From assembly GCF_000385215.1 (NCBI RefSeq), contig NZ_ARQK01000052.1, positions 1 to 64,000 on the forward strand: a stretch of DNA of 64,000 nucleotides, in the 5' to 3' direction. Positions within the stretch are counted from its first letter, which is position 1. Every line of letters begins with the position of its first letter. Shown in pieces: positions 3,567 through 63,843 of this stretch. Origin of the DNA: Thioalkalivibrio thiocyanoxidans ARh2. GTDB lineage: Bacteria; Pseudomonadota; Gammaproteobacteria; Ectothiorhodospirales; Ectothiorhodospiraceae. A program made the translations under genes and the position numbers. The notes below the pieces were generated by a model. It saw only the letters and a list, made by a program, of their open reading frames with translations. It made no database searches and was not told the origin of the DNA.

Positions 3567-3588
3567 CAGCGGTGGACCGCGGGTTGGG

Positions 3589-39217: not shown

Positions 39218-39410
39218 GGACGCGCCCCGCGGGCGCCGAAGTGACCATCGACCTTGAACCAGAGGTTCAGGTGGGAGAAGCCTCCGAATCTTAAGGCTTT
39301 CCGCTCGATGACGGACATGCGCAACGAAACGGAAGTGCTCGGTCCCGTGGTGAAGAATTAAGGCTCAAGGGTACCACCAGGCCACTTTCGCACGCCGCAG
39401 CGACGCGTCC
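39218..39410 (-). ncRNA. ssrS: 6S RNA
   Basis: On the minus strand, bases 39410-39218 form a rod closed by GGACGCG/CGCGTCC. The sequence matches conserved pieces of E. coli 6S RNA in order: CCCTTGAGCC near the 5' part, a central region with CATGTCCGTC, then GCGGAAAGCCTTAAG, and CACCTGAACC TCTGGTTCAAGG in the 3' arm. The length of about 193 nt fits. It lies directly upstream of fau, as in other gammaproteobacteria. 6S RNA binds sigma-70 RNA polymerase and restrains transcription in stationary phase. Ends are inferred from the closing stem. Confidence 0.88.
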
Positions 39411-48253: not shown

Positions 48254-50113
48254 ATGAAGCGCACAGCACTTTCCACGGCCATCCTGCTGGCCACCACCCC
48301 GGTTCTGGCCGAGACGCCGAACGCCGATTCCGAAGCGCACACCCTGGAGACCGTCCAAGTCACCGCCGCGCGCATCGCACAGACCGTTGATGAGACCCTT
48401 TCCTCTGTCACCGTCATCGAACGCGAGGAGATCGAGCGTCTGCAGCCCCAGCAGTTCACCGATTTGCTGGAGGGTCGAGCCGGGATCGAAACCTCCCAGA
48501 ACAGCGCCTTCGGCAAGTCCACTTCCGTTTATGCGCGTGGCACGAGTTCCGACCATACCTTGCTGTTGATAGACGGCGTGCGCATGGGTTCTGCGACGTC
48601 GGGTGGTGCAAGCTGGCAGTTCCTGCCTCCGGAAGAGATCGAGCGCGTCGAGATCGTACGCGGCCCACGCACCAGCATCTATGGCTCCGACGCAATCGGC
48701 GGCGTAGTGCAGACTTTCACCCGTGAGGGCCGCAAGGGCCCTCCGAAAGTCAACGCGTTTGTCGGCGGCGGCAGTTTCAACACTTGGGAGGCCGGCGTTG
48801 GTGTTGCCGGTGGCACCGATAACACAACCTACAGTCTCTCGGTCAGTCACTTCGGTACTGACGGCATCAATGTGCAGGATGACGTCGGCGATGACGACCG
48901 CGACGGCTACGACAACACCTCGCTGGCCAGCAAAGTGGCTCACCGCTTGGACAACGGGATCGAGGTCTTCGGCAACGTGCTGTATTCGGAGGGACGTTCT
49001 GAATACGATGCGGATGAGTCCGACCCCGTCACTTTTGCAAACCTGGGTCCGTATGATCGGGCGTACACGGATTTCGTTCATGCCGCGTTACGAGCCGGTG
49101 TCCGCATCCCGGTAAGCAATCACTGGGACACGGAAATCACGATGGGGCAGTCACGGGATGAGAGTGACGAAATCACCGAAGGTGGCGTTCTGGGGGGAAG
49201 TGCCGACCGCTTCGATACGAGGCGGGATCAATTGGCTTGGCGCAATGATATCCGCCTGGGTGAGCGCACCGACCTGATCGCCGGGGTGGATTCCTACGAA
49301 GACCAGGTCGACGGCTCTGCGGATTACGATGAAGACTCGCGCTACAACGTCGGCGTGTATTCGGTCGTGCGCACTGAGCTCGGCAACCACGACCTGGAAG
49401 GATCACTCCGATACGACGATAACGAGCAGTTCGGCGACAAGACCACCGGGCAGGTCGCCTGGGGCATGCAGGCCAACAACGCCCTGCGGCTGCGGGCCAG
49501 CTATGGGACCGCCTTCAAGGCTCCGACATTCAACGATCTCTATTTCCCGGGGTTCGGGAATCCCGATCTTGAACCAGAGACGTCGCGCACTTTCGAACTC
49601 GGTGCCCGTTACAGCAGTGGCCCGTATTATGCGGATGCGGCGGTGTTTCGCACCGAGCTGGATCAGATGATCAGCTATGATCCGATTGCCTTCCAGGCTG
49701 AGAATATCGACGAGGCGCGGATCCATGGGGTTGAGCTTGAAGGAGGCTATGCAACCGCCCGGTGGGTTACCCGTGCCTCGTTGACGATGCTGGATGCTGA
49801 GGATCGCGAAACAGGCAACGAGCTCCAGCGGCGTTCACCCGTGACGGCCCGTGTGGATCTCGATCGGCAGTTCCAGCATCTCTCGCTGGGAGGTTCGGTG
49901 ATTGCGAAGAGCCGCTCGTATAACGACGCCAATAATGACGAACGCCTTTCCGGGTACGGGCTGCTGAACCTGCGAGCGAGCTATCAGATTGCGCCGGAAT
50001 GGCAGATTCAGGCGACGGTCAATAACGTGTTCGACAAGGACTACGAGACCGCCGGAGGGTACAACCAGCCGGGTCGGGCCGCTTTCGTCAAGCTGCGCTA
50101 CCAGCAGAGGTGA
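48254..50113 (+). CDS. btuB: TonB-dependent cobalamin receptor
   Basis: A 619-residue outer-membrane transporter with a signal peptide (cleavage near VLA-ET, residue ~19). The TonB-box region is ETVQVTA (residues ~35-41). A plug domain follows (RAGIETSQN, YARGTSSDHTLLLIDGVRMG, VEIVRGPRTSIYGSDAIGGVV) and then a 22-strand barrel that ends in an aromatic/charged C-terminus. These plug features match BtuB. It follows the B12 riboswitch directly, confirming a corrinoid-uptake role. Confidence 0.94.
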   Translation: MKRTALSTAILLATTPVLAETPNADSEAHTLETVQVTAARIAQTVDETLSSVTVIEREEIERLQPQQFTDLLEGRAGIETSQNSAFGKSTSVYARGTSSDHTLLLIDGVRMGSATSGGASWQFLPPEEIERVEIVRGPRTSIYGSDAIGGVVQTFTREGRKGPPKVNAFVGGGSFNTWEAGVGVAGGTDNTTYSLSVSHFGTDGINVQDDVGDDDRDGYDNTSLASKVAHRLDNGIEVFGNVLYSEGRSEYDADESDPVTFANLGPYDRAYTDFVHAALRAGVRIPVSNHWDTEITMGQSRDESDEITEGGVLGGSADRFDTRRDQLAWRNDIRLGERTDLIAGVDSYEDQVDGSADYDEDSRYNVGVYSVVRTELGNHDLEGSLRYDDNEQFGDKTTGQVAWGMQANNALRLRASYGTAFKAPTFNDLYFPGFGNPDLEPETSRTFELGARYSSGPYYADAAVFRTELDQMISYDPIAFQAENIDEARIHGVELEGGYATARWVTRASLTMLDAEDRETGNELQRRSPVTARVDLDRQFQHLSLGGSVIAKSRSYNDANNDERLSGYGLLNLRASYQIAPEWQIQATVNNVFDKDYETAGGYNQPGRAAFVKLRYQQR

Positions 50114-50116
50114 TCC

Positions 50117-50731
50117 ATGGGTAATCGACTGTCGAAGATTGCGACCCGCACGGGTGACGAAGGCCGGACCGGCCTGGGCGATGGCTCGCGGGTGGACAAG
50201 GACAGCCACCGCGTCGAGGCGTTTGGCGACGTGGACGAGCTCAACAGTGTCGTGGGCCGGGTCCTGGTCCACGATCTGCCGGAAGAGGTTCGGCGCGTGC
50301 TGGCCCTGGTTCAGCACGAGCTGTTCGACCTGGGGGCGGAGCTGGCGGTGCCGGGGCATCAGGCACTGCCGGATGCCTCTGTGGAGCGGCTCGATGTGGA
50401 GCTGGAAAGCTTCAACGCCGATCTGCCGCCGCTCGAAGAGTTCATCCTGCCGGGCGGTGGCCCGGCCACGGCCGACTGCCACATCGCCCGTACGGTCTGC
50501 CGGCGCGCGGAACGCCGGCTGGTGGCGGTGAATCACCACGAGGCGTTGCGGCCAAGTTCGCTGGCCTACGTCAACCGCCTGTCGGATCTTCTGTTCGTGC
50601 TCTGTCGTGTGTGCTTGCACGTCACGAGAACGGCGCGGAAATCCTCTGGCAGCCGGCCAACAAGCGCGGCTGAGACCGCCTGCGTTTGCCGGTTTTCGGG
50701 TGCCGTTTCCACGGCACCTTCCTGCGCATAA
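50117..50731 (+). pseudogene. PduO-type cob(I)alamin adenosyltransferase, frameshifted C-terminus
   Basis: The first ~165 residues match PduO-type adenosyltransferases, with KIATRTGDEGRTGLGDG, AFGDVDELNSVVG, FILPGGGP and SSLAYVNRLSDLLFVL. After LLFVLCRV the frame runs into a non-homologous Arg/Ser/Cys-rich tail ending at 50731. Two bases out of phase, the expected end (HENGAEILWQPANKRG, stop at 50673) is intact. A GTGTGTG run at 50607-50613 has one GT too many, so the coding frame breaks there. It could be a sequencing error, a real mutation or a slippage switch. A second adenosyltransferase, cobO, is nearby. Confidence 0.85.
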
Positions 50732-50797: not shown

Positions 50798-53700
50798 ATG
50801 TCCTTCTGGAAACGCAGCGTGGTTTTGCTGATGGTTGTGCTGTGGAGCGCGCCCGCCTGGGCGGATCCCAGGATTGTCGGCATCGTCTCCGAGCGCTCGG
50901 CCCCAGAGGTGGCCGCCGGTGCGCATCGATTCCTGGAGGCCGTGCCGGATGCCGAGGTGGTGCTGCGCACGCCTGAGCAGCTGGCGGACAAGTCGGACTC
51001 GTCAGTCCAGGCGCTGTGGCGCGATGCCGACGCGGTGCTCGTGGCCGCGGTGTTCGGGGACCAGGCCGGTCGTCTCGAACGTCTGCTGCGCGAAGAGCCA
51101 CCGGCCGAGTCAGCGCCGATCCTTGCAATCAACAGCGAACGGCGCCTGACCGCGCTGTCCCGCATCGATGGCCAGGCGGTGCTGGAGGAGCTGGACGAGG
51201 AGGCCCGGACCGAACTGACCGAGAACCCTGAAGCGGGCGAGGATCCGCGCGAGCACCTGGCCCGGCAGCAGGAGCGCTTCTCAAACCAGGCCGACTGGCT
51301 GATCGGACGTGCGTTCTATCAGGGCCGCACACCGGAGAACATGGAGGGCCTCATGCGCTGGCTGGTCGCTCGGGGCGGGCACTCGATCGAGGTGCCGGAA
51401 CCGGATCCGCGCGAGACCATCCGCTATTACCGGGATGGCCAGTCGGTGGCCGACCCGGGGGATCTTGGCCTGGATGCCAGGCCGGCCGTGGCTGTGCTGG
51501 ACCTGGATACCGGTGACCGTCCCGGTGACCGCGAGCTTCTGGATGCGACCTGCGAGGCGCTGGCGGCCCGGGATATCCAGTGCTTCGCGGTACTCGCGCG
51601 CTGGGGTGGGGCCAGCCGCGAGGCGGTCGAGAACCTCGCTGCATCGGCGGCACCCGCCGAGCTGCGCGGGATCGTCAGCCTGCAGGACTTCGTGGTGGGC
51701 GGAGGTGGCAACCGCGAGGCGGTGGCCGAGGCCTTTGGCGAGCTGGATGTCCCGGTGGTCAAGGGGATTCGCCTGGCGGACGTGAGCGAGACCGAGTGGC
51801 GGCTCTCGCACGAGGGCATCCCCTGGGACAAGGTCCACTATCACGTGGCCATGCCGGAATTGCAGGGCGCCAGCCAGCCGATGGTGCTGGCGACCGCGGG
51901 CGAGCCCACGCAGGACGAACGCACTGGCGTGCAACTGGCGCTGCCCGAACCGGTGGGCGAGCGGGTGGAGGCCCTGGCCGACCGGATGCAGCGCTGGAAC
52001 CGGCTGCGCCAGCTGGACAACGCAGACAAGCGGGTCGCGGTCGTGTACTACAACCATCCGCCCGGTCGCCAGAACATTGGCGCCGACAAGCTGGATGTCC
52101 CGGAATCACTGCTGGAGATCCTGCAACGGCTGGACGCCGCCGGCTACGACCTCGGGGACGAGGTGCCGGAGGATGCCGAGGCCCTGCTGGACATGATCCA
52201 GGACCGGGCGGTGAATCTGCCGGAACAGGCGGACGCGCTGGACGCGATTGCCGGCCGGGTCGCCTCGCTGGATCGAGATCAGTACCAGGCGTATTTCGAC
52301 GGCTTGCCTGCCGCGGTGCAGGCGGAGCTGGTCGACGGACCGATCGGCTACCTGCAGGCGCGCCTGGAGGCGGCCAGGGACGCGGACAAGCACGAACTGG
52401 CGGAGGCCGCGCTGGAAAGCGGTGTTGGCGATCTGCGGCATATGCTCGAGAGCTACCCGCACGACGCCCAGGAACGGGCGCTGGATCTGCTCGCCCAGTA
52501 CGAGGCTGCCTGGGAGGCCACGCTGGCCGGTGAAGATGAACACGAAACCACCGAACAGCTGCGCAAGGCCCTGGTGCGTACAGGCATCCCGGGTCTGACC
52601 GGATGGGGCGAGCCACCGGGCGAGGCCATGACGCGCGACGGCGAGATGCTCTTCCCGGGTATCGAGTTCGGCAACGTGTTCATCGGTCCGCAGCCGCCGC
52701 GCGGGTGGGAGGTCAGCGAGCGCTTGCTGCATGCGAATACGACCTTCCCGCCGACGCACCAGTACGCCGGTTTCTATCACTGGATTCGCGAGCACTTCGA
52801 GGCGGATGCGCTGGTCTACGTCGGGCGTCATTCCACCCGCGAGTTCCTGCCGCGCCGCCGTGCGGGGCTGGCCCCGGACGACTACCCCGAGATCCTCGGC
52901 GGCGACCTGCCGATCATCTATCCCTACATCGTCGATGGCGTCGGCGAGGGCATCCAGGCCAAGCGCCGCTCGATGGGCGTGATGATCAGCCACCTGACCC
53001 CGCCGCTGGCGGCCACCGAGCTCTACGACAGCCTGCTGGAACTGCGCCAGCTGGTGGAGACCTACGAGGCCGCGGCCCAGCCAGATGCGGCCACCCGTTC
53101 GCGCGCCGCCCAGACCCTGCGCGAGCGTATCGACGAGCTGGGCCTGACCGAGACCATCGAACGCGAACTGGCGCGCGGCCATCACCATCACGGCCACGAC
53201 GACGGAGATGGGCACCACGATGACCACTCCGACGGGCATGAGCAGGACGGTGGCCATGGACATGACGACCATGGCAGGGACGATGATCATGGCGATGACC
53301 ACGGTCACGCCCATGATCACGGTGACACGCCCCTGGCGGAGATGGACGAAGAGCTGCTCGTGCACGAGATCGGCCACTACCTGACCGACATGCAGGAGGA
53401 CCAGATGCCGCTGGGTCTGCATGTGTTCGGTCGCGACTGGTCGGACGAAGCCGTGGACACGATGCTCGAGTCGATGGCCGGGGATGGTGAGGCCGGTGAC
53501 GACTGGGACGCCAGGCTGCGGGGTTCGCCCGCCAGTGAACGCGCCCATCTGCTGGCCGCCCTGGAGGGTCGGTTCGTGCCACCGGGTCAGGGCAACGATC
53601 CGATCCGCACGCCGGATGTACTGCCCACCGGGACAAACTTCCATGCCCTGTCGGCGGACCTGGTGCCAACCCGTATCGCCTGGGGGATCGGTCAGGAACT

Positions 53701-55267
53701 CGCCGCGGATGCCCGCGAGCACGGTGATCCGGAAGCGGATGGCAGCGAGGCCATCATCCTCTGGGCCTCCGACACCGTGCGTGACGAGGGGGTGATGATC
53801 GCCTTCGGCATGGACATGCTTGGAATCCGGCCCGCCTGGAACAGTCGCGGGATCGTCGAGGGCCTGGAGCGCATGGATCTCGACGAGGCCGGGCGCGACC
53901 GTCGCCGGGATGCCCTGTTTACCACCTCCGGGCTGTTCCGCGATCTCTACGAGGACCAGCTCGTGTGGCTGGACCGGGCCGCACGGCTGGCGCTGGATGG
54001 CGCCTCGGAGACGATCCTCGAGGAGCACCCGGAACTGGAAGAGGCACTGGAAGCAGCCCTGGCTCCGCTGGCGGAGGATCTGCGTGACCCTGGCGACGAG
54101 TCGCTGGCGCGTAACGATGTCGCCGCGCAGTGGGTGGAGGACACCGAGGCCCTGCGCGCGGCGGGGCTGGACGGTGCTTCCGCCGGGGAGCAGGCCGCGT
54201 TGCGCGTGTTCGGCACCGCACCGGGGGCGTACGGCGCCGGGGTGAACCGCCTGGCGGACCGCTCCGGCGCCTGGGAGGATCGCGCCGAACTGGGGGCGGC
54301 CTACCTGCGCCGCATGGGGCATGCCTATGGCACCACGGCATCCGGAGATGCGGCGCACGAGGCGTTCGAGTCGCGCGTGGCGGGGGTGGGGCACACCTAT
54401 CTGGGTCGCGCCTCGCACCTGTACGGGCTGCTGGACAACGACGACGGCTTCGATTTCCAGGGTGGGCTGTCCACTGCCGTGGAAAGCCTGCGTGGCGAGG
54501 TGCCGGACAACCGAGTGCTACAGCATGCCGACCCGGACAATCCGCAGGTGGAGACACTGGGGCGCGCGCTGATGCGCGAGCTGCAGGGGCAGAACCTGAA
54601 CCCGCAGTGGATCGAGCCGCTGATGGATCACGGCTATGCCGGGGCCCGCACCATGGCCCGCGACTTCGTCGACAACCTGTGGGGCTGGCAGGCCACCAAC
54701 CCCGAGATCGTGCGCTCCTGGGTCTGGGACGAGGTGCACGACATCTATCTACAGGACCGGCACGGACTGGGCGTGGACGAATTTCTCGCCGACGGCCACA
54801 ACGTGCATTTGAAGACCCACCTGCAGGCCGTGCATCTGGTGGCTGCCAGTCGCGGGTTCTGGGAGGCCGAACCGGAGGTACTGGAGGCCCTGTCCGAACG
54901 CTTTGCCGAACTGGTTGCGGAACACGGCCTGCCGGGCAGCGGGCACACGCGCCCCGACCACCCGATGCTGGACGAGGTGGCCGAGCGCCTGGAGGACCCC
55001 GAGCTGCGCGAGGCCTTCGAGGCCGTGCGCGCGTCCGCGCAGATCGATCGCGCACAGGCGGAGGCCGATCCCAGCCGTGTCACGGAGATCCAGCCGCTGG
55101 AGGACCCGGACGCCCGGGAGATGCAGGAGCTGCCGGAAGCGGCCGAGGCCGAGAGTGGCCAGGAGACCGGCGACGAGGCGGTCGGCATGCCCTGGATTCC
55201 CTGGATGGTCGCCGCCGCGCTGTTTCTGCTGCTGATCGGCGGTATCGCCGCAGGCCGCCGCCGATAA
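50798..55267 (+). CDS. cobN: Exported, membrane-anchored CobN-family chelatase subunit
   Basis: A 1489-residue protein of the CobN/Mg-chelatase H family. Unlike cytoplasmic CobN it begins with a textbook signal peptide (basic MSFWKRS, hydrophobic VVLLMVVLW, AWA-DP cleavage near residue 23). It ends with one membrane helix (MPWIPWMVAAALFLLLIGGI) followed by RRR, so the bulk should lie in the periplasm. The CobN core is recognisable from KRVAVVYYNHPPGRQNIGA through LPTGTNFHALSADLVPT and IAWGIGQELAADAREH. A 50-residue His/Asp-rich insert lies at residues ~795-844. The next genes encode an ExbB-like protein and DUF2149; no CobS or CobT is present in the window. Topology and partners resemble HmuS of Bacteroides haem loci, while the B12 riboswitch and btuB indicate corrinoids as substrate. 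Confidence 0.88.
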   Translation: MSFWKRSVVLLMVVLWSAPAWADPRIVGIVSERSAPEVAAGAHRFLEAVPDAEVVLRTPEQLADKSDSSVQALWRDADAVLVAAVFGDQAGRLERLLREEPPAESAPILAINSERRLTALSRIDGQAVLEELDEEARTELTENPEAGEDPREHLARQQERFSNQADWLIGRAFYQGRTPENMEGLMRWLVARGGHSIEVPEPDPRETIRYYRDGQSVADPGDLGLDARPAVAVLDLDTGDRPGDRELLDATCEALAARDIQCFAVLARWGGASREAVENLAASAAPAELRGIVSLQDFVVGGGGNREAVAEAFGELDVPVVKGIRLADVSETEWRLSHEGIPWDKVHYHVAMPELQGASQPMVLATAGEPTQDERTGVQLALPEPVGERVEALADRMQRWNRLRQLDNADKRVAVVYYNHPPGRQNIGADKLDVPESLLEILQRLDAAGYDLGDEVPEDAEALLDMIQDRAVNLPEQADALDAIAGRVASLDRDQYQAYFDGLPAAVQAELVDGPIGYLQARLEAARDADKHELAEAALESGVGDLRHMLESYPHDAQERALDLLAQYEAAWEATLAGEDEHETTEQLRKALVRTGIPGLTGWGEPPGEAMTRDGEMLFPGIEFGNVFIGPQPPRGWEVSERLLHANTTFPPTHQYAGFYHWIREHFEADALVYVGRHSTREFLPRRRAGLAPDDYPEILGGDLPIIYPYIVDGVGEGIQAKRRSMGVMISHLTPPLAATELYDSLLELRQLVETYEAAAQPDAATRSRAAQTLRERIDELGLTETIERELARGHHHHGHDDGDGHHDDHSDGHEQDGGHGHDDHGRDDDHGDDHGHAHDHGDTPLAEMDEELLVHEIGHYLTDMQEDQMPLGLHVFGRDWSDEAVDTMLESMAGDGEAGDDWDARLRGSPASERAHLLAALEGRFVPPGQGNDPIRTPDVLPTGTNFHALSADLVPTRIAWGIGQELAADAREHGDPEADGSEAIILWASDTVRDEGVMIAFGMDMLGIRPAWNSRGIVEGLERMDLDEAGRDRRRDALFTTSGLFRDLYEDQLVWLDRAARLALDGASETILEEHPELEEALEAALAPLAEDLRDPGDESLARNDVAAQWVEDTEALRAAGLDGASAGEQAALRVFGTAPGAYGAGVNRLADRSGAWEDRAELGAAYLRRMGHAYGTTASGDAAHEAFESRVAGVGHTYLGRASHLYGLLDNDDGFDFQGGLSTAVESLRGEVPDNRVLQHADPDNPQVETLGRALMRELQGQNLNPQWIEPLMDHGYAGARTMARDFVDNLWGWQATNPEIVRSWVWDEVHDIYLQDRHGLGVDEFLADGHNVHLKTHLQAVHLVAASRGFWEAEPEVLEALSERFAELVAEHGLPGSGHTRPDHPMLDEVAERLEDPELREAFEAVRASAQIDRAQAEADPSRVTEIQPLEDPDAREMQELPEAAEAESGQETGDEAVGMPWIPWMVAAALFLLLIGGIAAGRRR

Positions 55268-55287
55268 CCGCCGCTTGGGTATCTCCT

Positions 55288-55356
55288 GTAGGAGGCGAGC
55301 CCCCTGGCCGATGCGCCGCCGGATAGACCCCATCGGCCAGGGGGCTGGCCTCCTAC
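55288..55356. repeat. Long inverted repeat (REP-like) between cobN and ExbB-like gene
   Basis: GTAGGAGGCGAGCCCCCTGG (from 55288) pairs with CCAGGGGGCTGGCCTCCTAC (ending 55356), and CCGATG with CATCGG inside, around a ~17-nt loop. Its TGTAGGAG ends recall REP-type palindromes. It sits inside the transcription unit and may stabilise or attenuate the cobN transcript. Confidence 0.7.
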
Positions 55357-55403
55357 GCACGAACGTGGGAAGCGCCGAACAAAGGTTAGTGAGGTAAACA
55401 CGA

Positions 55404-55847
55404 ATGCCGTTCTCGATCACGATGGAACTGATGGATACCGTAGTGCGCTGGCTGCTGGAGCCGGTGATTGTCGGCCTGCTGGTGCTGGTGGCGGTCGCCG
55501 TCTGGGAGCTTGGGCTCGCACTGGGCGAGCGCTCCGGCGGGGTGCGCCGGCTGGAGGCCACCGGCGATGCCGAGCGCCTGGCCTACCGCGCACGACGCCG
55601 CATCGACCGTGCGGATCTGCTGGCACGCATCGGCCCGATGCTCGGGCTGATGGGCACGCTGATCCCGCTGGGGCCGGGGCTGGCGGCGATGGGACGCGGG
55701 GAACTGGAAATCCTCGCCCAGGCCGTTACGGTGGCGTTCAACACCACGGTACTGGGGCTGCTGGTCGGCATCCTCGGCTTTCTGCTCGGACGCCTCCGGC
55801 GGCGCTGGTATGACGCCGCGATGGAGCGCCTGGAGGCGGCGGCATGA
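55404..55847 (+). CDS. MotA/TolQ/ExbB proton-channel family protein
   Basis: A 147-residue membrane protein with three helices. The family core RIGPMLGLMGTLIPLGPGLAAM and VAFNTTVLGLLVGILGFLLG is intact. Such proteins conduct protons and drive a partner protein. It is short compared with ExbB (about 240) and lacks a large cytoplasmic domain. It overlaps DUF2149 by 4 bases and follows cobN, so the pair probably energises the CobN protein. The equivalent Bacteroides gene is hmuU. GAGGT lies 9 bases upstream of the ATG. Confidence 0.88.
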   Translation: MPFSITMELMDTVVRWLLEPVIVGLLVLVAVAVWELGLALGERSGGVRRLEATGDAERLAYRARRRIDRADLLARIGPMLGLMGTLIPLGPGLAAMGRGELEILAQAVTVAFNTTVLGLLVGILGFLLGRLRRRWYDAAMERLEAAA

Positions 55848-56134
55848 GGGTCCCGCACTACCGCGCCAGCCGCTTCGATGCCCCTGACGAAGAGCCGATG
55901 GGGCCATTGGCCAACCTGGCCGACATCATGCTGGTGTTCGCCGTCGGCCTGATGGTGGTGATGGCCGCCTCGGGGAGTGGCCTTGAACCGGCCAGTGGCG
56001 GCGCCGAGATCGAGCCCGGACGCGAGATCCCGGACCCGCCCGAGGGTGCCGGGGAGGCCGGCTCCGGCTTCGAGTCGATGGGCCAGGTCTACCGTGACCC
56101 GGAAACCGGACGCATGATCCTGATCGGCGAATAG
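55844..56134 (+). CDS. DUF2149 family protein
   Basis: A 96-residue protein with one hydrophobic helix (LADIMLVFAVGLMVVMAAS, residues ~28-46), preceded by a polar N-terminus and followed by a periplasmic Gly/Glu/Pro-rich part. This topology parallels ExbD/TolR, with an Asp (position 29) at the start of the helix. DUF2149 genes are commonly beside MotA/TolQ/ExbB-like and CobN-like genes. It overlaps the upstream gene (ATGA), so a fixed stoichiometric complex is likely. Confidence 0.88.
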   Translation: MRVPHYRASRFDAPDEEPMGPLANLADIMLVFAVGLMVVMAASGSGLEPASGGAEIEPGREIPDPPEGAGEAGSGFESMGQVYRDPETGRMILIGE

Positions 56135-56192: not shown

Positions 56193-56807
56193 ATGAGCGA
56201 CGACACCGAAGCCGCACGCGCCGAACGCCACGCCCAGCGCATGGCGCGCAAGAAGGAGATTGTGGACCGCAAGATCGCCGAGGCGCAGGAAGAAAAGGGC
56301 GTGTTCCTGGTCCTGACCGGCACCGGCAAGGGCAAGAGTTCCTCGGGCTTCGGCATGGTCGCCCGGGCCCTGGGGCACGGGATGCAGGTCGGCATCGTGC
56401 AGTTCATCAAGGGCCAGTTCGCCACCGGCGAGGAGGCCTTCTTCCGCGGTCAGGACAATGTGCAGTACCACGTGATGGGCGAGGGCTACACCTGGGAGAC
56501 CCAGGACCGCGAGAAGGATGCCGAAGCCGCCCGCCATGCCTGGGCGCATGCCCGCGACATGCTGCGCGACCCGAACGTCGATCTGGTGCTGCTCGACGAG
56601 TTGCACATCGCGCTGAAATATCAGTACCTGGATGTGGACGAGGTGCTGCAGGACATCACCGCGCGACCGGAGATGCAGCACGTGATCACCACCGGCCGCG
56701 CCGCGCCGAAGGCGCTGGTCGAGGCGGCCGACACGGTCAGCGAGATCGGCGTGGTCAAGCATGCCTTCCAGGCCGGCATCAAGGCGCAGAAGGGGATCGA
56801 GCTGTGA
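56193..56807 (+). CDS. cobO: Cob(I)yrinic acid a,c-diamide adenosyltransferase
   Basis: A 204-residue CobA/CobO/BtuR-type ATP:corrinoid adenosyltransferase that attaches the 5'-deoxyadenosyl group to cob(I)alamin or precursors. The P-loop is GTGKGKSSSGFG (near residue 44), then VDLVLLDELHIALKY, and VITTGRAAPKAL. AAGGAG lies 11 bases upstream. It is not homologous to the PduO-type enzyme upstream, so the operon carries two unrelated adenosyltransferases. It overlaps cobB by 4 bases. Confidence 0.95.
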   Translation: MSDDTEAARAERHAQRMARKKEIVDRKIAEAQEEKGVFLVLTGTGKGKSSSGFGMVARALGHGMQVGIVQFIKGQFATGEEAFFRGQDNVQYHVMGEGYTWETQDREKDAEAARHAWAHARDMLRDPNVDLVLLDELHIALKYQYLDVDEVLQDITARPEMQHVITTGRAAPKALVEAADTVSEIGVVKHAFQAGIKAQKGIEL

Positions 56808-58096
56808 GTGTCAGCTGCCCCGCCGCGTTCGTGGCGGCCCCGGCCTCGGGCCAGGGCAAGACCACGATCACCGCCGCCATCGCCCGTTACCACCGCAACC
56901 AGGGTTTGCGAGTGCGCGTGTTCAAGACCGGCCCCGACTTCCTCGACCCGATGATCCTGGAACAGGCCTCCGGGCATCCGGTCGACGCCTTGCATCTGTG
57001 GATGGTCGGGGAAGAAGCCTGTCGAGCGATGCTGTACGAGGCGGCCCAGGAGTCCGATCTGATCCTGGTGGAGGGCTCGATGGGGCTGTTTGACGGGGAT
57101 CCGTCCGGTGCGGATCTGGCCCAGGCCTTCGGCTTGCCGATCCTGGCCATGGTGGATGCCAGCGGCATGGGCCAGACCTTCGGGGCGCTGGTGCATGGCT
57201 TGTCGACCTACCGTCCGGGCCTGTCGTTTGCCGGCGTGATTGCCAACCGGGTGGGCAGTCCCGGCCATGCGCGGATGCTGGAGGATTGCACCCCGGAGGC
57301 AATCCGCTTCTTTGGTGCCGTGCAGCGTAACGAGACGCTGAGTGTCCCGGACCGTCATCTGGGGCTGGTGCAGGCCGGCGAGATCGCCGATCTGGATGCG
57401 CGGCTGGAGGCGGCAGCGGCCGCGATTGAAGAGGCTGGGGTGACAGGGCTCCCGGAGCCGATGCGCTTTGATCCGGAAACAATTGCGCCGATCGAGGCGG
57501 CGCTGTCCGGCGTGCGCATTGCGATCGCGCGGGATGCGGCTTTTGCTTTCATGTATCCGGCCAACCTGCGTCTGCTGGAGAAGATGGGCGCCGAACTGCG
57601 GTTCTTTTCCCCGCTTGCCGGGGACGGGTTGCCAGAGGCCGATGCCGTCTGGCTGCCGGGTGGCTACCCCGAGCTGTATCTGGATCAGCTGTCCGACAAT
57701 GCTGCCCTGAAGTCGGACCTTGAGGTCCATCATGCGGCGGGCCGCCCCATCCTGGCGGAGTGCGGGGGCTTTCTCTACCTGCTGGACGAACTGGCCGATC
57801 GCGAGGGCCATGCCGCGGCTATGGCCGGGCTGGTGCCGGGCAAGGCCCAGCTGGCAGACCGCCTGCAGGGTCTGGGGCTCCAGGCGGCCCCGCTGCCGGA
57901 GGGCGAGCTGCGCGGGCACACCTTCCATCACACCCATTCCGAGGTCGGGCTCGAGCCCTATGGTCATTGCTGGCGTGCGCGCGGGACGGGGTCGCAGGGC
58001 GAGGCGATCTATCGTGACGGGCGCCTGACCGCGACCTATCTGCATGCCTGGTTCCCCTCCAACCCGCAGGCCACGGCGCGACTGTTCCAGGCATGA
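56804..58096 (+). CDS. cobB: Cobyrinate a,c-diamide synthase
   Basis: A 430-residue glutamine- and ATP-dependent amidase that converts hydrogenobyrinic or cobyrinic acid to the a,c-diamide. The N-terminal dethiobiotin-synthetase-like domain carries APASGQGKTT and the C-terminal glutamine amidotransferase domain carries the nucleophile segment PILAECGGFLYLLDEL. The GTG start at 56804 overlaps the cobO stop. The same protein is called CbiA in the anaerobic pathway; I use cobB because cobN, cobG and cobH genes indicate the late-cobalt route. Confidence 0.93.
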   Translation: MSVSCPAAFVAAPASGQGKTTITAAIARYHRNQGLRVRVFKTGPDFLDPMILEQASGHPVDALHLWMVGEEACRAMLYEAAQESDLILVEGSMGLFDGDPSGADLAQAFGLPILAMVDASGMGQTFGALVHGLSTYRPGLSFAGVIANRVGSPGHARMLEDCTPEAIRFFGAVQRNETLSVPDRHLGLVQAGEIADLDARLEAAAAAIEEAGVTGLPEPMRFDPETIAPIEAALSGVRIAIARDAAFAFMYPANLRLLEKMGAELRFFSPLAGDGLPEADAVWLPGGYPELYLDQLSDNAALKSDLEVHHAAGRPILAECGGFLYLLDELADREGHAAAMAGLVPGKAQLADRLQGLGLQAAPLPEGELRGHTFHHTHSEVGLEPYGHCWRARGTGSQGEAIYRDGRLTATYLHAWFPSNPQATARLFQA

Positions 58097-58947
58097 GGGG
58101 CACAAGGCAGCACAAGGTGGCCAGGATCGGATCCGGTGCACGCCCTGGGGTGACCCTCCCGTTTCGCGGCGAGCGGCGGGCCGGGTGCGTGGATCTGGTG
58201 GGCGCGGGGCCGGGCGATCCAGGCCTGCTGACACTGGACGCGCTCAGCGCGATGCAGCACGCGGATATCCTGCTGCACGACCGCCTGATCCCGCAGGCGA
58301 TCCTGGATCTGGCAAACCCCAAGGCGCAGCGTCTGTACGTGGGCAAGGCGCGCTCGCGGCACAGTTGTGATCAGGGCGATCTGAACGATCGCATGGTCGC
58401 GCTGGCCCGGGAGGGGCACTACGTGGTGCGCCTGAAGGGGGGTGACCCGTTTGTCTACGGGCGGGGCGGCGAGGAGGCCGCCGCGATTGCCGCCGCCGGG
58501 GTGCCAGTGCGCATCGTGCCGGGGATTACCGCAGCCGGTGGCTGTGCAGCCTATGCAGGGATCCCGCTGACCCATCGCGATCACGCCTATCGCTGCCAGT
58601 TCGTTACCGCCCACCGGCGTGCCGGCGAGACCAATCTGGACTGGGCCTCGCTGGTGCATCCGCAGCAGACCCTGGTTGTCTACATGGGGCTGCATACCCT
58701 GGCCGAGGTCTGTGGCGAGATGATGGCGGCGGGTGCGGACGGCGCGATGCCGGCCGCGCTGGTCGAACAGGGGACGCGGCCGGGCCAGCGTGTCATCGAA
58801 GGCGTTCTGGCCGACCTCCCCGCGCGGGTGGCGGATCTGGATATCCATTCGCCGGCGCTGCTGATCGTGGGCGAGGTCGTGCGCCTGCGCGAGACGATCG
58901 CCACGCAGGGTGCCGAGTCCGTCCCGGGAACGCATGAAACCGGCTGA
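58093..58947 (+). CDS. cobA: Uroporphyrinogen-III C-methyltransferase
   Basis: A 284-residue SAM-dependent methylase that makes precorrin-2, the entry to corrin and sirohaem synthesis. The motifs [38 protein letters not shown] and [21 protein letters not shown] are diagnostic. An N-terminal extension of about 30 basic residues precedes the core, so an internal start is possible. The ATG overlaps the cobB stop. Confidence 0.93.
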
Positions 58948-60079
58948 GCAGAACAGCTCGGCGGGCGCCATGCGCCCGGAGACGCCCGAGACCAGCGGGC
59001 GCCTGCGCACGGGGCTGACCACCGGTGTGTGCGCGACCGCCGCCGCCGTTGCCGCCGCACGCTGGCTGCTGGAGGGGCGGCGGCTCGAGACGGTGGAGGT
59101 CATCCTGCCGAAGGGGCAGGTCGTGAGCCTGACACTGAACGACCTCGAACCCACTCCGGGCGGCGCGGTTGCCGGGGTCATCAAGGATGCCGGCGACGAC
59201 CCGGATGCCACCCACGGGGCCCGGGTCTGGGTGGAGGTGAACCTGTGCGGTGCGCCCGGCGTGGAGTTCGTCGCGGGTGCCGGGGTCGGGACGGTCACAC
59301 GCCCGGGCCTGGTGCTGGAGCCGGGCGAGCCCGCCATCAATCCGGTCCCACGACGCATGATCCAGGGGCATCTGGAGACACTGGCTGCAGCCGCCGGGTA
59401 CAGCGGGGGCTTCAGGGTTACAGTCGGCGTGGACGGTGGCGAACGCATTGCCGGGCGGACCATGAACGCTCGACTGGGGATCCTCGGGGGGCTCTCGATC
59501 CTGGGCACCACCGGCATCGTCCGGCCATTCTCCTGCGCCGCCTATATCGCATCCATCCATCAGGCCATAGACGTGGCCCGCGCCAACGGCTGCCCGCGCG
59601 TGGCCTGCTGCACCGGGGGTACCAGCGAGGCCGCGATGCGCGAACAGTACGGTCTGGACGACATGGCGCTGATCGAGATGGGGGATCTGTTCGGGGCGGC
59701 ACTGAAGTATCTGAGGCGTCACCCCCTGCCCGCGGTGGTGCTGGCCGCGGGGTTCGGCAAGCTCAGCAAATTCGCGGCCGGGCACCTGGATGCCCACAGC
59801 CGCAAGTCACGCATCGATCTCGACGCGCTGGCGGAGGAGGCGGCGGATCTGGGAGGCAGCCAGGCACTGGTCGCGCGCATCCGCGCGGCCAATACCAGCG
59901 CCCAGGCGCTTGCGGATTGCCTGGAGCAGGGTGTGGCGCTGGCCGACCGTATCAGTGCGCGCGCCTGGCAGCGGGCGCGCGGGATGCTGCCGGAGACCAC
60001 GGCGCTGGAGGTCTGCGCGGTGGATCGGGCCGGACGCATCGTCGGGTGGGCCAGGGATGCCGGGGGTCTGGCGCCATGA
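58934..60079 (+). CDS. cbiD: Cobalt-precorrin-5B (C1)-methyltransferase
   Basis: A 381-residue enzyme that methylates C1 of the corrin ring. Motifs are [42 protein letters not shown] and [20 protein letters not shown]. CbiD belongs to the anaerobic route by name but also replaces CobF in late-insertion clusters such as that of Pseudomonas aeruginosa, where it lies with cobG and cobH as here. The ATG at 58934 is placed within the end of cobA, 14 bases before its stop ends, and overlaps the ABC gene at its own end. Confidence 0.93.
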
Positions 60080-61020
60080 TGGCCCCGGCGATCGCCCTGC
60101 AGTCGGTGGCCAAGCGTTATGCCGGTGGCCGGGTTGGGCTGGCGGATGTTGACCTGGAGGTGCCGGCGGGCCGCTTTTTCGGCCTGCTGGGGCCGAATGG
60201 GGCCGGCAAGACGACCCTGGTGGGACTGCTGACCACGCTGGTGCGGGCGGATCGCGGGTCGATCCGGGTCTGCGGCTTCGACGTGGCGACACAGGCGGTT
60301 GCGGCGAAGGCCTGCATGGGCGTGGTGCCGCAGGAGATCAACTTCAACAGCTTCGAGCCGGTGGGCGAGATTGTTGAAGCCCAGGCGGCCTATTACGGAT
60401 TGTCCCCGCGGCGGGCGCGCGAGCGTACTGGCCAGGTACTGGAACAGGTGGGCCTGGCGGACCGGCGGGGGCAGTCCGCCTGGGGGCTGTCGGGCGGAAT
60501 GAAGCGCCGGCTGATGATTGCCCGGGCGCTGGTGCACCGCCCGCACGTGCTGCTGCTGGACGAGCCGACCGCGGGGGTGGACCTCGAGGGACGCCATACA
60601 ACCTGGGAACTGCTGCGTGCGCTGAATGCGGATGGTGTGACCATCCTCCTGACGACACACTACCTCGAGGAGGCGGAAGCGCTGTGCGATTCGCTGGCGA
60701 TTCTGGATCAGGGCGAGATCGTTGCGCGCGGCGAGACCGGCGAACTGCTGCACGGGCTGAACGTGCAGACCCTGGTGCTCGAGTTGAGCGCCCCCCTTGA
60801 TGCGTGCCCCGAGCTGGAAGGGCTGGCGATCCGGCGGGTGGATCGCTGGACCCTGGAGATTGACCTCCCGCAGGGCATGGAGGTGAACGCGCTTTTTGAG
60901 CGTCTCGGCGCGTGCGGTGTCCAGGTGGCGGGCTTGCGCAACAAGCGCAACCGGCTCGAGTCGCTGTTCCTGCAGCGCATCGCGGAACGTGCCAGTGCAT
61001 CGCGGGGGGCCGGGACATGA
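60076..61020 (+). CDS. ABC-2 type transporter ATP-binding protein
   Basis: A 314-residue ATPase. Walker A is GPNGAGKTT, signature [15 protein letters not shown], Walker [12 protein letters not shown], and the H-loop is [11 protein letters not shown]. The C-terminal ~90 residues form the accessory domain seen in drug/polysaccharide export ATPases of the YadG/NodI type. The ATG overlaps the cbiD stop. With the permease gene it forms an exporter inserted into the cobalamin operon. The cargo is unknown. Confidence 0.9.
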
Positions 61021-61790
61021 GACTCGCGGCTTACGGATTTGCCTACCGCGGGATGGTGATCAAGCAGGTGCGCCGCTTCCTGCGTGCCTGGGTGCAGAAC
61101 CTGCTGCCATCGGTGGTGACGACCGTTCTGTTTCTGGTGATCTTTGGTCACCTGGTCGGGCGCGAGCTGGGCACCATGCGTGGCGTCGACTACGCCGATT
61201 TCATCCTGCCGGGCCTGATCATCCTGGCCGTGGCCACCAACGCCTACAGCAATGTGACGCTGGCGTTCTATGGCGCGCGCCTGCAGCGGCACATCGAGGA
61301 ATTGCTGGTTGCGCCACTCCCCGCCTGGCTGATCGTGGCGGGCTTTGCAACCGGCGGGGTGATCCGCGGTCTGCTGGCCGGGGCGCTAGTGGCGCTGGTT
61401 GCAATCCCGTTTACCAACCTGCAACTGCACCACCTGGCGGCGACGCTGGGGATCGCGCTGGTCAGTGCCACGCTGTTCGCCCTGGCCGGCCTGCTGAATG
61501 GCCTGTACGCGCGCAGTTTCGACCACACCTCCGTGGTGGCGACGTTCGTGCTGACCCCCCTGATCTATCTGGGAGGGCTGTTCTATCCGGTGGAACGGAT
61601 GCCCGAGCCCTGGCAGTCGCTGGCGGCGCTGAACCCGCTGTACTACATGGTCGAGGGCTTTCGCTACGGTCTGCTGGGGACCGGGTCCTTCGCCTGGGCC
61701 ACAACCTTCTGGGTGCTCGTGGGGACCACCCTGGTTGTCGGCGGGGTGGCCTGGGCCCTGGTCGCTCGCGGCGTGCGGATCCGGTCATGA
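61017..61790 (+). CDS. ABC-2 type transporter permease (YadH/NodJ-like)
   Basis: A 257-residue inner-membrane protein with six helices. The ABC-2 signature region LTPLIYLGGLFYPVERMPEPWQSLAALNPLYYMVEGFRYG is clear. It overlaps the ATPase gene and cobG by 4 bases each, so it is translated with the cob genes. This type of pair exports amphipathic molecules such as lipids or drugs; a link to corrinoids or cobalt is only contextual. Confidence 0.9.
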   Translation: MRLAAYGFAYRGMVIKQVRRFLRAWVQNLLPSVVTTVLFLVIFGHLVGRELGTMRGVDYADFILPGLIILAVATNAYSNVTLAFYGARLQRHIEELLVAPLPAWLIVAGFATGGVIRGLLAGALVALVAIPFTNLQLHHLAATLGIALVSATLFALAGLLNGLYARSFDHTSVVATFVLTPLIYLGGLFYPVERMPEPWQSLAALNPLYYMVEGFRYGLLGTGSFAWATTFWVLVGTTLVVGGVAWALVARGVRIRS

Positions 61791-63193
61791 GCAGGGGTGC
61801 GAAGCCGTTGGGTGCCGAGCATCCGCGTGTGCGCCGGGCGTGTCCCGGAGTCGCTGCGCCCATGACGACCGGAGACGGGCTTCTGATGCGGGTACGTCAC
61901 CCGATCGGAGGGCTCGACGCGGCGCAGGCGTGCACCCTCGCCGAGGTAGCGCTGCGTTTCGGTTCCGGTGACCTGGAGCTGACCAGTCGCGGCAATCTGC
62001 AATTGCGCGGTCTGGACACGCCGGGCCTGGAGACGGCACGGGCCGAACTGGAGGCGGCGGGTCTGGCGGATCGCGATCCCGAGGCGGAGGCGGTGCGCAA
62101 TGTGCTGGTGGCACCGGCGACGGATATCGACCCGGAGGCCGCCATGGATGTACAGCCCATCGCGCGGCAACTTGTGCGGGCACTGGGGGCAACCCCGCGC
62201 CTGCGCGCGCTGCCGCCGAAGGTCGGGGTGCTGGTGGAGTCGGGTGGCGATTTGCCGCTGGGCCGGGTGCCGGCGGACCTTCGGCTGGAGGCCTGTACGG
62301 GACCGGGTGGCGTGTGGATTCGCGTGGCCGTCGGGGCGTCGGCTCAGGCCGCGACGGTGCTTGGGTGGGCACGCCCGGAGAAGGCTGTGGACGCCGCCTT
62401 GCAAGTCCTCGAGCAATTCCTGGCGCTGCGCCAGGGGGATCCGGATCCGCCGGGGCGTTTGCCCGGCGCCCTGGCTCGGTTCGGCGCGAAGGCCCTGACG
62501 CCTCCCGGACTGGAGCGAGTGCTTCCGGGTGGGGATCCGATTGCGGCACGGAGCAGCGAAAACGCCGACTCCGGGATTGGTGCGGGCCTGAATGGCGACG
62601 CCTTCGGGGTCGCGTTTCCGTTCGGAGCCCTGCGCGCCGAGGCCCTGCGGGGGCTGGCCGAGCAGATCCGCGGCGGGGAAGGGTGCCTGCGGCTCACCCC
62701 CTGGCGCAGCGTGCTGCTGGTCGGGGCGCGGCCGATCGCCCTGGACCGGCTGGCTGCATGGGGCGGTGTAACGGATCCAAAGGATCCTCGCCTCGCGGTG
62801 AGCGCCTGTGTCGGGCAGGCGGGATGCTCGGCGGGTACAACATTCACGCGGGCGGACGCCGCGATGCTCGCGACAGCCGCCCGCGGACTGCTGGCAGATG
62901 ACGAATATCTGCATGTCAGTGGCTGCGAGAAGCACTGTGGGAGGCCCGCGAATGCCCGAATGGTCCTTGCGGCGCGGGCGGGGCATTACGACTTGTCGCT
63001 GCAATGTGCGCCGGCGCACTGGGAGACCCTTCTTGTGGGCCTTTCGCCGGATCAGCTGCGAGCGGCCCTGTCGGCGCTTGAACAGATTGCGCACGCAGAG
63101 CGCGGCGGGGTGCTCGCGGCCCTGCACAGGCTGGGACCGGCCGAGCTGGGTCGGCGCCTCAACGCGATGGTGAATAACGGAGACGAAACATGA
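61787..63193 (+). CDS. cobG: Precorrin-3B synthase (CobG-like sirohaem/FeS protein)
   Basis: A 468-residue protein of the nitrite/sulfite reductase fold. The two half-domains are recognised by TSRGNLQLRGL and LTPWRSVLLVG. The 4Fe-4S ligands are in SACVGQAGCSAG and VSGCEKHCGRP (C-x5-C and C-x3-C). CobG hydroxylates precorrin-3A at C20 with O2, a mark of the aerobic route. The N-terminal first ~25 residues are extra relative to the core. ATG at 61787 overlaps the permease stop and TGA overlaps cobH. Confidence 0.88.
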   Translation: MSRGAKPLGAEHPRVRRACPGVAAPMTTGDGLLMRVRHPIGGLDAAQACTLAEVALRFGSGDLELTSRGNLQLRGLDTPGLETARAELEAAGLADRDPEAEAVRNVLVAPATDIDPEAAMDVQPIARQLVRALGATPRLRALPPKVGVLVESGGDLPLGRVPADLRLEACTGPGGVWIRVAVGASAQAATVLGWARPEKAVDAALQVLEQFLALRQGDPDPPGRLPGALARFGAKALTPPGLERVLPGGDPIAARSSENADSGIGAGLNGDAFGVAFPFGALRAEALRGLAEQIRGGEGCLRLTPWRSVLLVGARPIALDRLAAWGGVTDPKDPRLAVSACVGQAGCSAGTTFTRADAAMLATAARGLLADDEYLHVSGCEKHCGRPANARMVLAARAGHYDLSLQCAPAHWETLLVGLSPDQLRAALSALEQIAHAERGGVLAALHRLGPAELGRRLNAMVNNGDET

Positions 63194-63843
63194 CGCAGAG
63201 CGATACCGCCGGGGCTGTACCCGATTACGAACGCGACGGCGCAGCCATCTACCGGGAATCCTTCGCGATTATTCGATCCGAGGCGGCGCTGGATCGTTTT
63301 CCGGGGGATCTGGTGCCTGCGGTGGTGCGCATGATCCACGCCTGCGGCATGACCGACCTGCCACGGGACGTCGGGTTTTCGGCCGGCGTGGCCGGGGCGG
63401 CTCGCGCGGCGCTGGCCGCCGGCGCGCCGATCCTGTGCGACAGCAACATGGTGGCGCATGGGGTCACGCGGGCCCGGCTGCCGGCGGATAACCCGGTGAT
63501 CTGCAGCCTCCGCGAGGACGGGGTGGCGGCTGCTGCCGAGCGTATGGGCACAACGCGTTCGGCGGCGGCGCTGGAATGGTGGCGACCGCATATGGAGGGT
63601 GCGGTCGTGGCGATCGGGAATGCACCCACGGCCCTTTTTCACCTGCTGGAGATGCTGCACCAGGGCGCGCCACGTCCGGCCGCGGTACTTGGTATCCCGG
63701 TGGGCTTTGTCGGTGCGGTGGAGAGCAAGGAGGCGCTGGCCGCCAGCCCGCTGGACCTCGAGTACCTGACCATCTTCGGACGCCGCGGTGGCAGCGCCAT
63801 GGCCGCGGCGGCCATCAACGCCTTTGCGAGTGACCGGATATGA
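63190..63843 (+). CDS. cobH: Precorrin-8X methylmutase
   Basis: A 217-residue enzyme that moves a methyl group from C11 to C12 to give hydrogenobyrinic acid. Typical segments are [30 protein letters not shown] (catalytic His), [18 protein letters not shown] and [18 protein letters not shown]. The ATG overlaps the cobG stop and the stop overlaps cobI, maintaining the coupled array. Confidence 0.95.

Follow-up and report, generated by a model that had tools for sequence, protein, structure and literature searches.

A B12-linked CobN-ExbB-DUF2149 module in Thioalkalivibrio thiocyanoxidans, a candidate periplasmic cobalt chelatase with a proton-driven motor

We analysed a 64,000-nucleotide stretch of the soda-lake bacterium Thioalkalivibrio thiocyanoxidans ARh2 (contig NZ_ARQK01000052.1, positions 1 to 64,000; hereafter the window), which carries a three-gene module encoding a CobN homologue, an ExbB-type protein and a DUF2149 protein behind a cobalamin riboswitch. 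The reading we favour, though tentatively, is that the module encodes a proton-driven, periplasmic, CobN-like class I chelatase with an ExbB and DUF2149 motor, which would insert cobalt into cobalt-free corrins. An earlier note on this DNA had proposed a proton-driven periplasmic chelatase or dechelatase, and a new branch, linked to B12 instead of haem, of the HmuS system of Bacteroides. CobN-like proteins of the HmuS/BtuS kind are already known, and the window module is a B12-linked variant of them. No description of a B12-controlled periplasmic CobN-ExbB-DUF2149 system was found in the open-licence literature, among the matches listed.

Public genomes were scanned with a profile, and the best 80 named loci were compared. 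Fifty-three of these loci, with 42-96 % identity (best segment) to the window protein, form its clade, and the other 27, with 28-35 % identity, are referred to as the ~30 % group. The clade occurs in Thioalkalivibrio, Halospina, Halovibrio, Aquisalimonas, Methylohalomonas, Marinobacterium, Stutzerimonas, Azotobacter, Pseudomonas and Colwellia, and also in Spongiibacter, Zhongshania, Methylophaga, Nitrosomonas, Nitrospina, Nitrospiraceae, Myxococcota and others. The association of cobN, exbB and duf2149 is not due to chance, because the same gene order was kept in 49 of the 53 clade loci. In two of the remaining loci the contig ends after or within cobN (L146 and L179), and a third (L181) lies on a scrambled contig.

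The CobN homologue (50798..55267, + strand, ATG start, 1489 amino acids (aa)) matches PF02514 with an E value of 2.3e-242. Its N-terminus, MSFWKRSVVLLMVVLWSAPAWA/D, looks like a Sec signal peptide, predicted to span residues 1-22 and to end at AWA/D (50798..50863, + strand). Near the C-terminus lies a predicted membrane anchor (55196..55255, + strand), followed by RRR. Both features, which the earlier note had pointed out, recur across the clade. They were scored with a hydropathy heuristic, not SignalP, by a script that seeks the most hydrophobic possible start. All 45 of the other aligned clade proteins have a hydrophobic C-terminal segment (best 17-residue mean 1.2 to 3.1), which ends in a short, usually basic tail, and none of the seven cytoplasmic-type CobN/BchH controls has such a tail (hydropathy <=0.65). 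A signal-peptide-like N-terminus was seen in 42 of the 45 clade proteins, judged by eye on the hydropathy output; the three exceptions are two internal starts picked by the script and one contig end. HmuS is predicted to have a membrane anchor at either end and to face the periplasm, and hydropathy indicates the same for the window protein, whose N-terminal segment reads as a cleavable signal peptide. The CobN homologue is apparently membrane-anchored and faces the periplasm, as far as location can be read from its sequence.

The protein contains both the PF02514 domain and the active-site His of the superfamily. Nine NCBIfam equivalogs for CobN/BchH matched it, all under their cut-offs (for example TIGR02257, 504.6 of 822 bits). 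In a maximum-likelihood tree of 38 of the 91 alignment rows, the window protein falls within a 16-row clade with support of 100/100, and canonical CobN (100/100) and BchH (100/100) branch apart from it. All periplasmic-type rows, including HmuS of B. theta, group together at 95/98; HmuS sits on a long branch and its placement is unsure. The kinship with HmuS claimed in the earlier note was supported by this grouping, and the tree separated the clade from ordinary CobN, BchH and HmuS alike. By these features the window protein is not an ordinary cytoplasmic CobN.

The genes that follow are those the earlier note had named. The ExbB/TolQ/MotA-type subunit (55404..55847, + strand, 147 aa) matches PF01618 with 38.8 bits (cut-off 22.9), and the DUF2149 protein (55844..56134, + strand, 96 aa, one transmembrane helix) matches PF09919 with 37.2 bits (cut-off 27.1); the two open reading frames share 4 nucleotides (nt; ATGA). 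The AlphaFold model of the ExbB-type protein shows a confident three-helix fold (predicted local distance difference test score of 93), and its closest PDB folds are E. coli ExbB, with a probability of 1.00 but an E value of 0.03. Its profile matches PDB sequences weakly (best MotA E 0.016, ExbB E 0.96). The DUF2149 model has one helix at residues 20-43 and low confidence elsewhere. No match between DUF2149 and ExbD was obtained with the PDB sequence profile and the fold model is weak, and identification of DUF2149 as ExbD by sequence was dropped. The ExbB core and Asp27 in the transmembrane helix of DUF2149 are invariant in 49 of 49 loci. The position of Asp27 is ExbD-like, since ExbD, TolR and MotB carry protons on an Asp in their single transmembrane helix. 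The module thus resembles the ExbB-ExbD, TolQ-TolR and MotA-MotB motors in its ExbB core and fold and in a one-helix partner with an invariant Asp, but differs from them in an ExbB-type subunit of merely 147 aa, in the weak sequence match and in adjoining a chelatase-like gene. Together the two proteins would form a proton-powered, ExbB/ExbD-like motor.

A cobalamin riboswitch (RF00174, 47866..48112, + strand, 88.6 bits against a gathering threshold of 31.5) lies upstream of the module and of a btuB-like gene for a TonB-dependent corrinoid receptor (48254..50113, + strand; TIGR01779 (TonB-B12), 551 bits, just below the cut-off of 599.7). A sense-strand cobalamin riboswitch precedes the module by at most 4.5 kb in 42 of the 53 clade loci, and in 24 of these its distance to cobN is 750 bases or less; of the 11 loci without one, ten are sequenced for under 3 kb upstream, and the eleventh, L164, carries no riboswitch. 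Eleven of the 42 riboswitches were seen by Rfam, those of three further Thioalkalivibrio loci (L135, L136 and L167) correspond to RF00174 matches, and the remaining ones were found with a sequence profile built partly from the Rfam-found ones. These results agree with the B12 context, instead of a haem context, that the earlier note had assigned to the module. Of the 53 clade loci, 17 include cobB and 20 include cobO. In Methylohalomonas lacus (L143, 6749-7354), two tandem cobalamin riboswitches stand ahead of the operon. A BtuF-like gene suspected in the operon of one relative had no Pfam match and was dropped.

Riboswitch control is not specific to the clade. No locus of the ~30 % group (27 in all) was hit by the sequence profile. 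Rfam, however, detected RF00174 in five of the eight of them that were tested, which showed the profile to be insensitive and overturned the idea of a clade-specific control. B12 control therefore extends past the window clade. Because five of the eight loci also carry cobalamin riboswitches, the haem-specific HmuS may be a special case. The B12-linked branch of the earlier note stands as a separate clade, but the B12 link is not confined to it. The ~30 % group itself (L187-L213) includes Desulfobacteria, Brocadiales, Methanosarcina and others, and several of its loci have an exbB-like gene before cobN.

We compared the module with known systems. It is similar to HmuS with its partners HmuU and HmuV in Bacteroidota (PDB 9d26, 9p4s), characterised in 2025 (PMC12583661), in the CobN fold and in the periplasm-facing anchors at either end that the paper predicts, as well as in the ExbB-like partner gene, an insertion near the same protein position and the shared tree supergroup. 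Unlike HmuS, it has a B12 riboswitch, no iron or haem context and a clade of its own (100/100). It is also similar to the membrane-anchored, CobN-like BtuS kind described in 2003, whose name implies a B12 link; as cited in PMC6460266, however, that kind serves metalloporphyrin salvage and was studied for haem in Bacteroides. CobNST and CobN-ChlI-ChlD share with the module the chelatase superfamily, an Asp at position 1216 and the late-cobalt pathway context, whereas they are cytoplasmic, use ATP-driven AAA+ partners and form a separate branch (100/100).

The active site also departs from that of HmuS. The alignment used here leaves out L140, L177-L181, L183 and L184 (fragments or frame breaks; 8 of 53), and L209 and L223. 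The HmuS motif LSLDHxxEFMGG, with His1209 and Glu1212, was absent, and Asp1216 and Asp1219 were found instead in 46 of 46 clade rows; Asp1216 (54443..54445, + strand) stands where HmuS has its axial His1209. His506 of HmuS is replaced by Ala646 in all 46 rows. Asp at the 1216 position was also found in the three canonical CobN rows. Asp1216 thus appears to argue against a site like that of HmuS but does not prove that the site is for cobalt. Near the site of the Met-rich insertion of HmuS (HmuS 780-898), the window protein has a His/Asp-rich insertion without Met (residues ~795-843; 53180..53326, + strand). This insertion is confined to a halophile sub-branch of 9 of the 46 clade rows (Thioalkalivibrio, Halospina, Halovibrio or Aquisalimonas), and its use as a hallmark of a cobalt enzyme was rejected on that ground.

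The operon does not end with the module, at 56134, the last position covered by the earlier note; the genes named there are present, but its coordinates take in just the central part of the operon, which runs on, with all operon genes in the window on the + strand. Family profiles identified cobO (ATP:corrinoid adenosyltransferase, 56193..56807), cobB (a,c-diamide synthase, 56804..58096), cobA (uroporphyrinogen-III C-methyltransferase, 58093..58947) and cbiD (58910..60079). An ABC-2 pair follows inside the ring-synthesis operon, consisting of an ABC ATPase (60076..61020) and a permease of the PRK15066 subfamily (61017..61790; 309 bits, cut-off 225). Next come cobG, which encodes the oxygen-dependent precorrin-3B synthase that marks the late-cobalt pathway (61787..63193; TIGR02435 268 bits, cut-off 234.8), and cobH (63190..63843), the last cob gene inside the window. 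Past the window end the operon continues with cobI, cobJ, cobK (opposite strand), cobL and cobM. Judged by its genes, this genome (2.77 Mb, 61 contigs, reported 100 % complete) encodes the full oxygen-dependent (CobG, late-cobalt) corrin pathway. In the late pathway, cobalt insertion is preceded by the step of cobB and followed by that of cobO.

The enzyme for cobalt insertion itself was then sought in the same genome. No second CobN was found, there being only one PF02514 protein, and ChlI/ChlD were not found either, TIGR02442 giving two weak matches of 32 and 28 bits against a cut-off of 779. The 32-bit match, on contig C58, is a MoxR-like protein of 308 aa beside a DUF58-like gene, judged from sequence, and was rejected as a chelatase partner. 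CobT was not found, CobS not having been searched as a family of its own, and genome-wide searches found neither CbiX nor CbiK. Neither of the two outcomes named as refuting in the earlier note, a CobS/CobT pair with a cytoplasmic protein or a tree position among ordinary cytoplasmic CobN, turned up. Within these searches the genome yielded no candidate cobaltochelatase but the module, which may be the organism's sole means of putting cobalt into the B12 ring.

Similar results were obtained in relatives. Among 30 genomes of the genus searched (some incomplete), 14 have this CobN and 9 have CobG above cut-off; CbiC was found in the same nine, all of them among the 14. Halospina and Halovibrio have a CobG ring operon, and this CobN is their only PF02514 protein; no CbiX was found in their 20-kb ring loci, the rest of those genomes not having been searched for it. 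For the late cobalt step in Halospina, Halovibrio and the CobG-carrying Thioalkalivibrio, no candidate other than the module was found. Genome-wide searches of the clade covered 44 of the 53 loci (leaving out L134, L135, L139, L140, L146, L167, L177, L179 and L180), and 34 of the 44 genomes have no other PF02514 protein. The ABC-2 pair lies between cbiD and cobG or cobH in all 11 operons of CobG genomes whose only CobN is this one (the window, eight relatives, Halospina and Halovibrio). It was found in none of nine other ring loci, four of which are from Zhongshania (three, one on a partial contig) or Spongiibacter, and it was rejected as a general part of ring operons. As a sign that the ring is exported, this distribution is suggestive only.

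Published work bears on the direction of the reaction. According to PMC6771967, removing cobalt from a corrin destroys the ring, and certain purple sulfur bacteria produce corrinoids without cobalt if none is available. Class I cobalt insertion requires energy, which the AAA+ partners supply in CobNST (PMC7689651), and HmuS, predicted to be anchored at both ends, takes iron out of haem without ATP (PMC12583661).

The cobalamin riboswitch acts as an off-switch through repression by B12, so an enzyme under such control should enlarge the corrinoid pool and not destroy it. Because cobalt removal destroys the corrin, and because a B12-repressed destroyer of corrinoids makes little sense, we favour insertion over dechelation. 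Between the two directions left open by the earlier note, insertion into a cobalt-free corrin is thus the likelier and dechelation is disfavoured.

The mechanism that we tentatively propose would run as follows. The three genes would give a membrane-anchored, periplasm-facing chelatase in which ExbB and DUF2149 replace the AAA+ motor CobS/CobT or ChlI/ChlD. Under B12 shortage the module would be expressed, and Co2+ would be put into cobalt-free corrins in the periplasm with energy from ExbB/DUF2149. In most carriers, which are seemingly ring-less, an outer-membrane receptor would bring the cobalt-free corrins in from outside, and CobB and CobO would then take over the metallated product. Aerobic producers, this one included, would have no late cobaltochelatase but the module; their cobalt-free ring would have to enter the periplasm, with the ABC-2 pair of the ring operon as a possible exporter, and then be taken back. 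In a fuller form for Thioalkalivibrio, Halospina and Halovibrio, the ring would be finished in the cytoplasm, exported by the ABC-2 pair, given its cobalt by the proton-motor-driven CobN on the periplasmic face of the inner membrane, and re-imported, with the same module letting ring-less bacteria use the cobalt-free corrins of their neighbours. We regard this fuller form as rather doubtful.

Several results weigh against cobalt insertion as proposed. CbiC is absent from 36 of the 44 clade genomes searched and present in eight (completeness not told, several being metagenome-assembled genomes), and a carrier without CbiC probably makes no cobalt-free substrate itself. Within the genus, 5 of the 14 cobN-carrying Thioalkalivibrio lack CbiC; four of them (G001, G011, G024 and G026) are at least 99 % complete, and in the fifth, G007, the contig ends near cbiD. 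The four retain btuB-pduO-cobN-exbB-duf2149-cobO-cobB without the ring block, and the constraint on their cobN is equal to that elsewhere, with a median ratio of nonsynonymous to synonymous substitution rates of 0.134 (6 pairs) versus 0.132 in the nine others (36 pairs). CbiX is encoded in the ring operon of Spongiibacter and two Zhongshania, and a canonical CobN in Azotobacter, in each case beside this module, which is therefore not needed for cobalt insertion there. Asp at position 1216 also occurs in 36 of the 37 rows of the ~30 % group, making the argument from Asp1216 weak. A real exception to the gene order is L140, an Aquisalimonas metagenome-assembled genome, in which no exbB follows in 1.2 kb past cobN; it disproves the idea that cobN never occurs without exbB. 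A periplasmic step within a cytoplasmic pathway demands two membrane crossings, and no biochemical evidence was found for any clade member. In L140, a peptidase-like gene, named by its sequence alone, follows the 3' end of cobN (3131-4352).

The ring block also varies between close relatives. The cobB of the four ring-less genomes belongs to another type, with 74-77 % identity to the cobB of eight ring makers, whose own copies are 94-100 % identical; the cobN of the ring-less genomes is 85-97 % identical. From these identities, the ring block looks to have been exchanged between close Thioalkalivibrio relatives, the breakpoint lying between cobO and cobB. In Thioalkalivibrio L063-L075 the ring block swaps together with one of two cobB types and is possibly a recombining accessory block for B12 prototrophy.

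With 36 of 44 carriers, and 5 of 14 in the genus, lacking CbiC, we rejected a de novo cobaltochelatase as the whole story. The core role of the module is probably corrinoid salvage, because most of the carrier genomes searched have no ring synthesis. Since the module is independent of ring synthesis, its shared role must suit bacteria that are short of B12 and import corrinoids.

Salvage could also proceed without any metal exchange. In that case the CobN body would bind a corrinoid delivered by BtuB, and the motor would open or strain it, either for release of the corrinoid to the inner-membrane importer or for stripping or reducing an upper ligand. We consider this possible, though less probable than cobalt insertion. 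It would suit the many carriers that lack CbiC and yet keep riboswitch control, as well as the equal constraint on cobN in salvage-only genomes, and HmuS is described as binding haem at a second, head/neck site (PMC12583661). However, His678 (52829..52831, + strand), the equivalent of the superfamily active-site residue His538 of HmuS, is kept in 46 of 46 clade rows, and the CobG genomes would then have no chelatase at all, as far as searched.

An HmuS-like dechelatase, acting in the periplasm on haem or another metallotetrapyrrole, is unlikely. HmuS has a biochemically shown activity and predicted anchors at both ends (PMC12583661) and belongs to the same tree supergroup; its operon includes HmuU, an ExbB homologue (PMC13227078), which bears out the ExbB part of the partner likeness drawn in the earlier note. 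Against such an activity stand the B12 riboswitch and B12 gene neighbours, the separate branch, the loss of both HmuS histidines throughout the clade, the missing Met-rich insertion and the impossibility of removing cobalt intact from corrins (PMC6771967, as above).

It is similarly improbable that ExbB/DUF2149 energise an outer-membrane receptor while the CobN homologue works alone. HmuU/HmuV are drawn as powering HmuR in the 2025 EMBO J paper (PMC12583661), btuB lies in the same operon in the window, and L140 has a cobN with no exbB behind it. Yet btuB (at least 35 % identity) was found in only 11 of the 53 clade loci, against 49 with the ordered trio, and the loci of Stutzerimonas, Azotobacter and Marinobacterium have the trio by itself after the riboswitch. 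The PF02514 match across three segments might speak for a cytoplasmic CobN of the ordinary kind whose N-terminus has been misread, but this reading is most improbable given the recurrence of signal peptide and anchor in the clade, the anchor's absence from the controls, the tree position apart from CobN and the failure to find CobT or ChlI/ChlD.

Other features were observed in and near the operon. A pduO-type ATP:corrinoid adenosyltransferase gene (50117..50731, + strand; TIGR00636, 186.7 bits) lies between btuB and cobN. Its last ~40 residues are read in another frame than those of 13 relatives: from about residue 165 (window 50590-50731) the frame departs from theirs, and the relatives end alike, near ...RHENG.E.LWQPA. 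A small frameshift, within a GTGTG run, seems to have caused this discrepancy. Between cobN and exbB lies an inverted repeat (55288-55356; 26 nt, 96 % complementary, 17-nt loop), for which a terminator, a processing site or a repeat element are candidate roles. The window also contains a 6S RNA (39221-39406, minus strand). A third cobalamin riboswitch of the genome lies on contig C52 (70538-70770, minus strand; L056 8711-10770 corresponds to C52 68711-70770). Behind it are genes for a porin-like outer-membrane protein and a small cytochrome-c-like protein, so named from their sequences, which is unusual for a B12 regulon.

If cobalt insertion by this module is true, a central step of B12 synthesis would occur outside the cytoplasm in many marine, soda-lake and soil bacteria, and the proton gradient would pay for it. 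Trade in cobalt-free corrins would become possible, a B12 currency seldom counted in models of makers and needers. The annotation gap for aerobic B12 producers seemingly without a cobaltochelatase would be closed, and partners of the HmuU/HmuV type would, in laboratory strains of Stutzerimonas or Azotobacter, gain a testable role.

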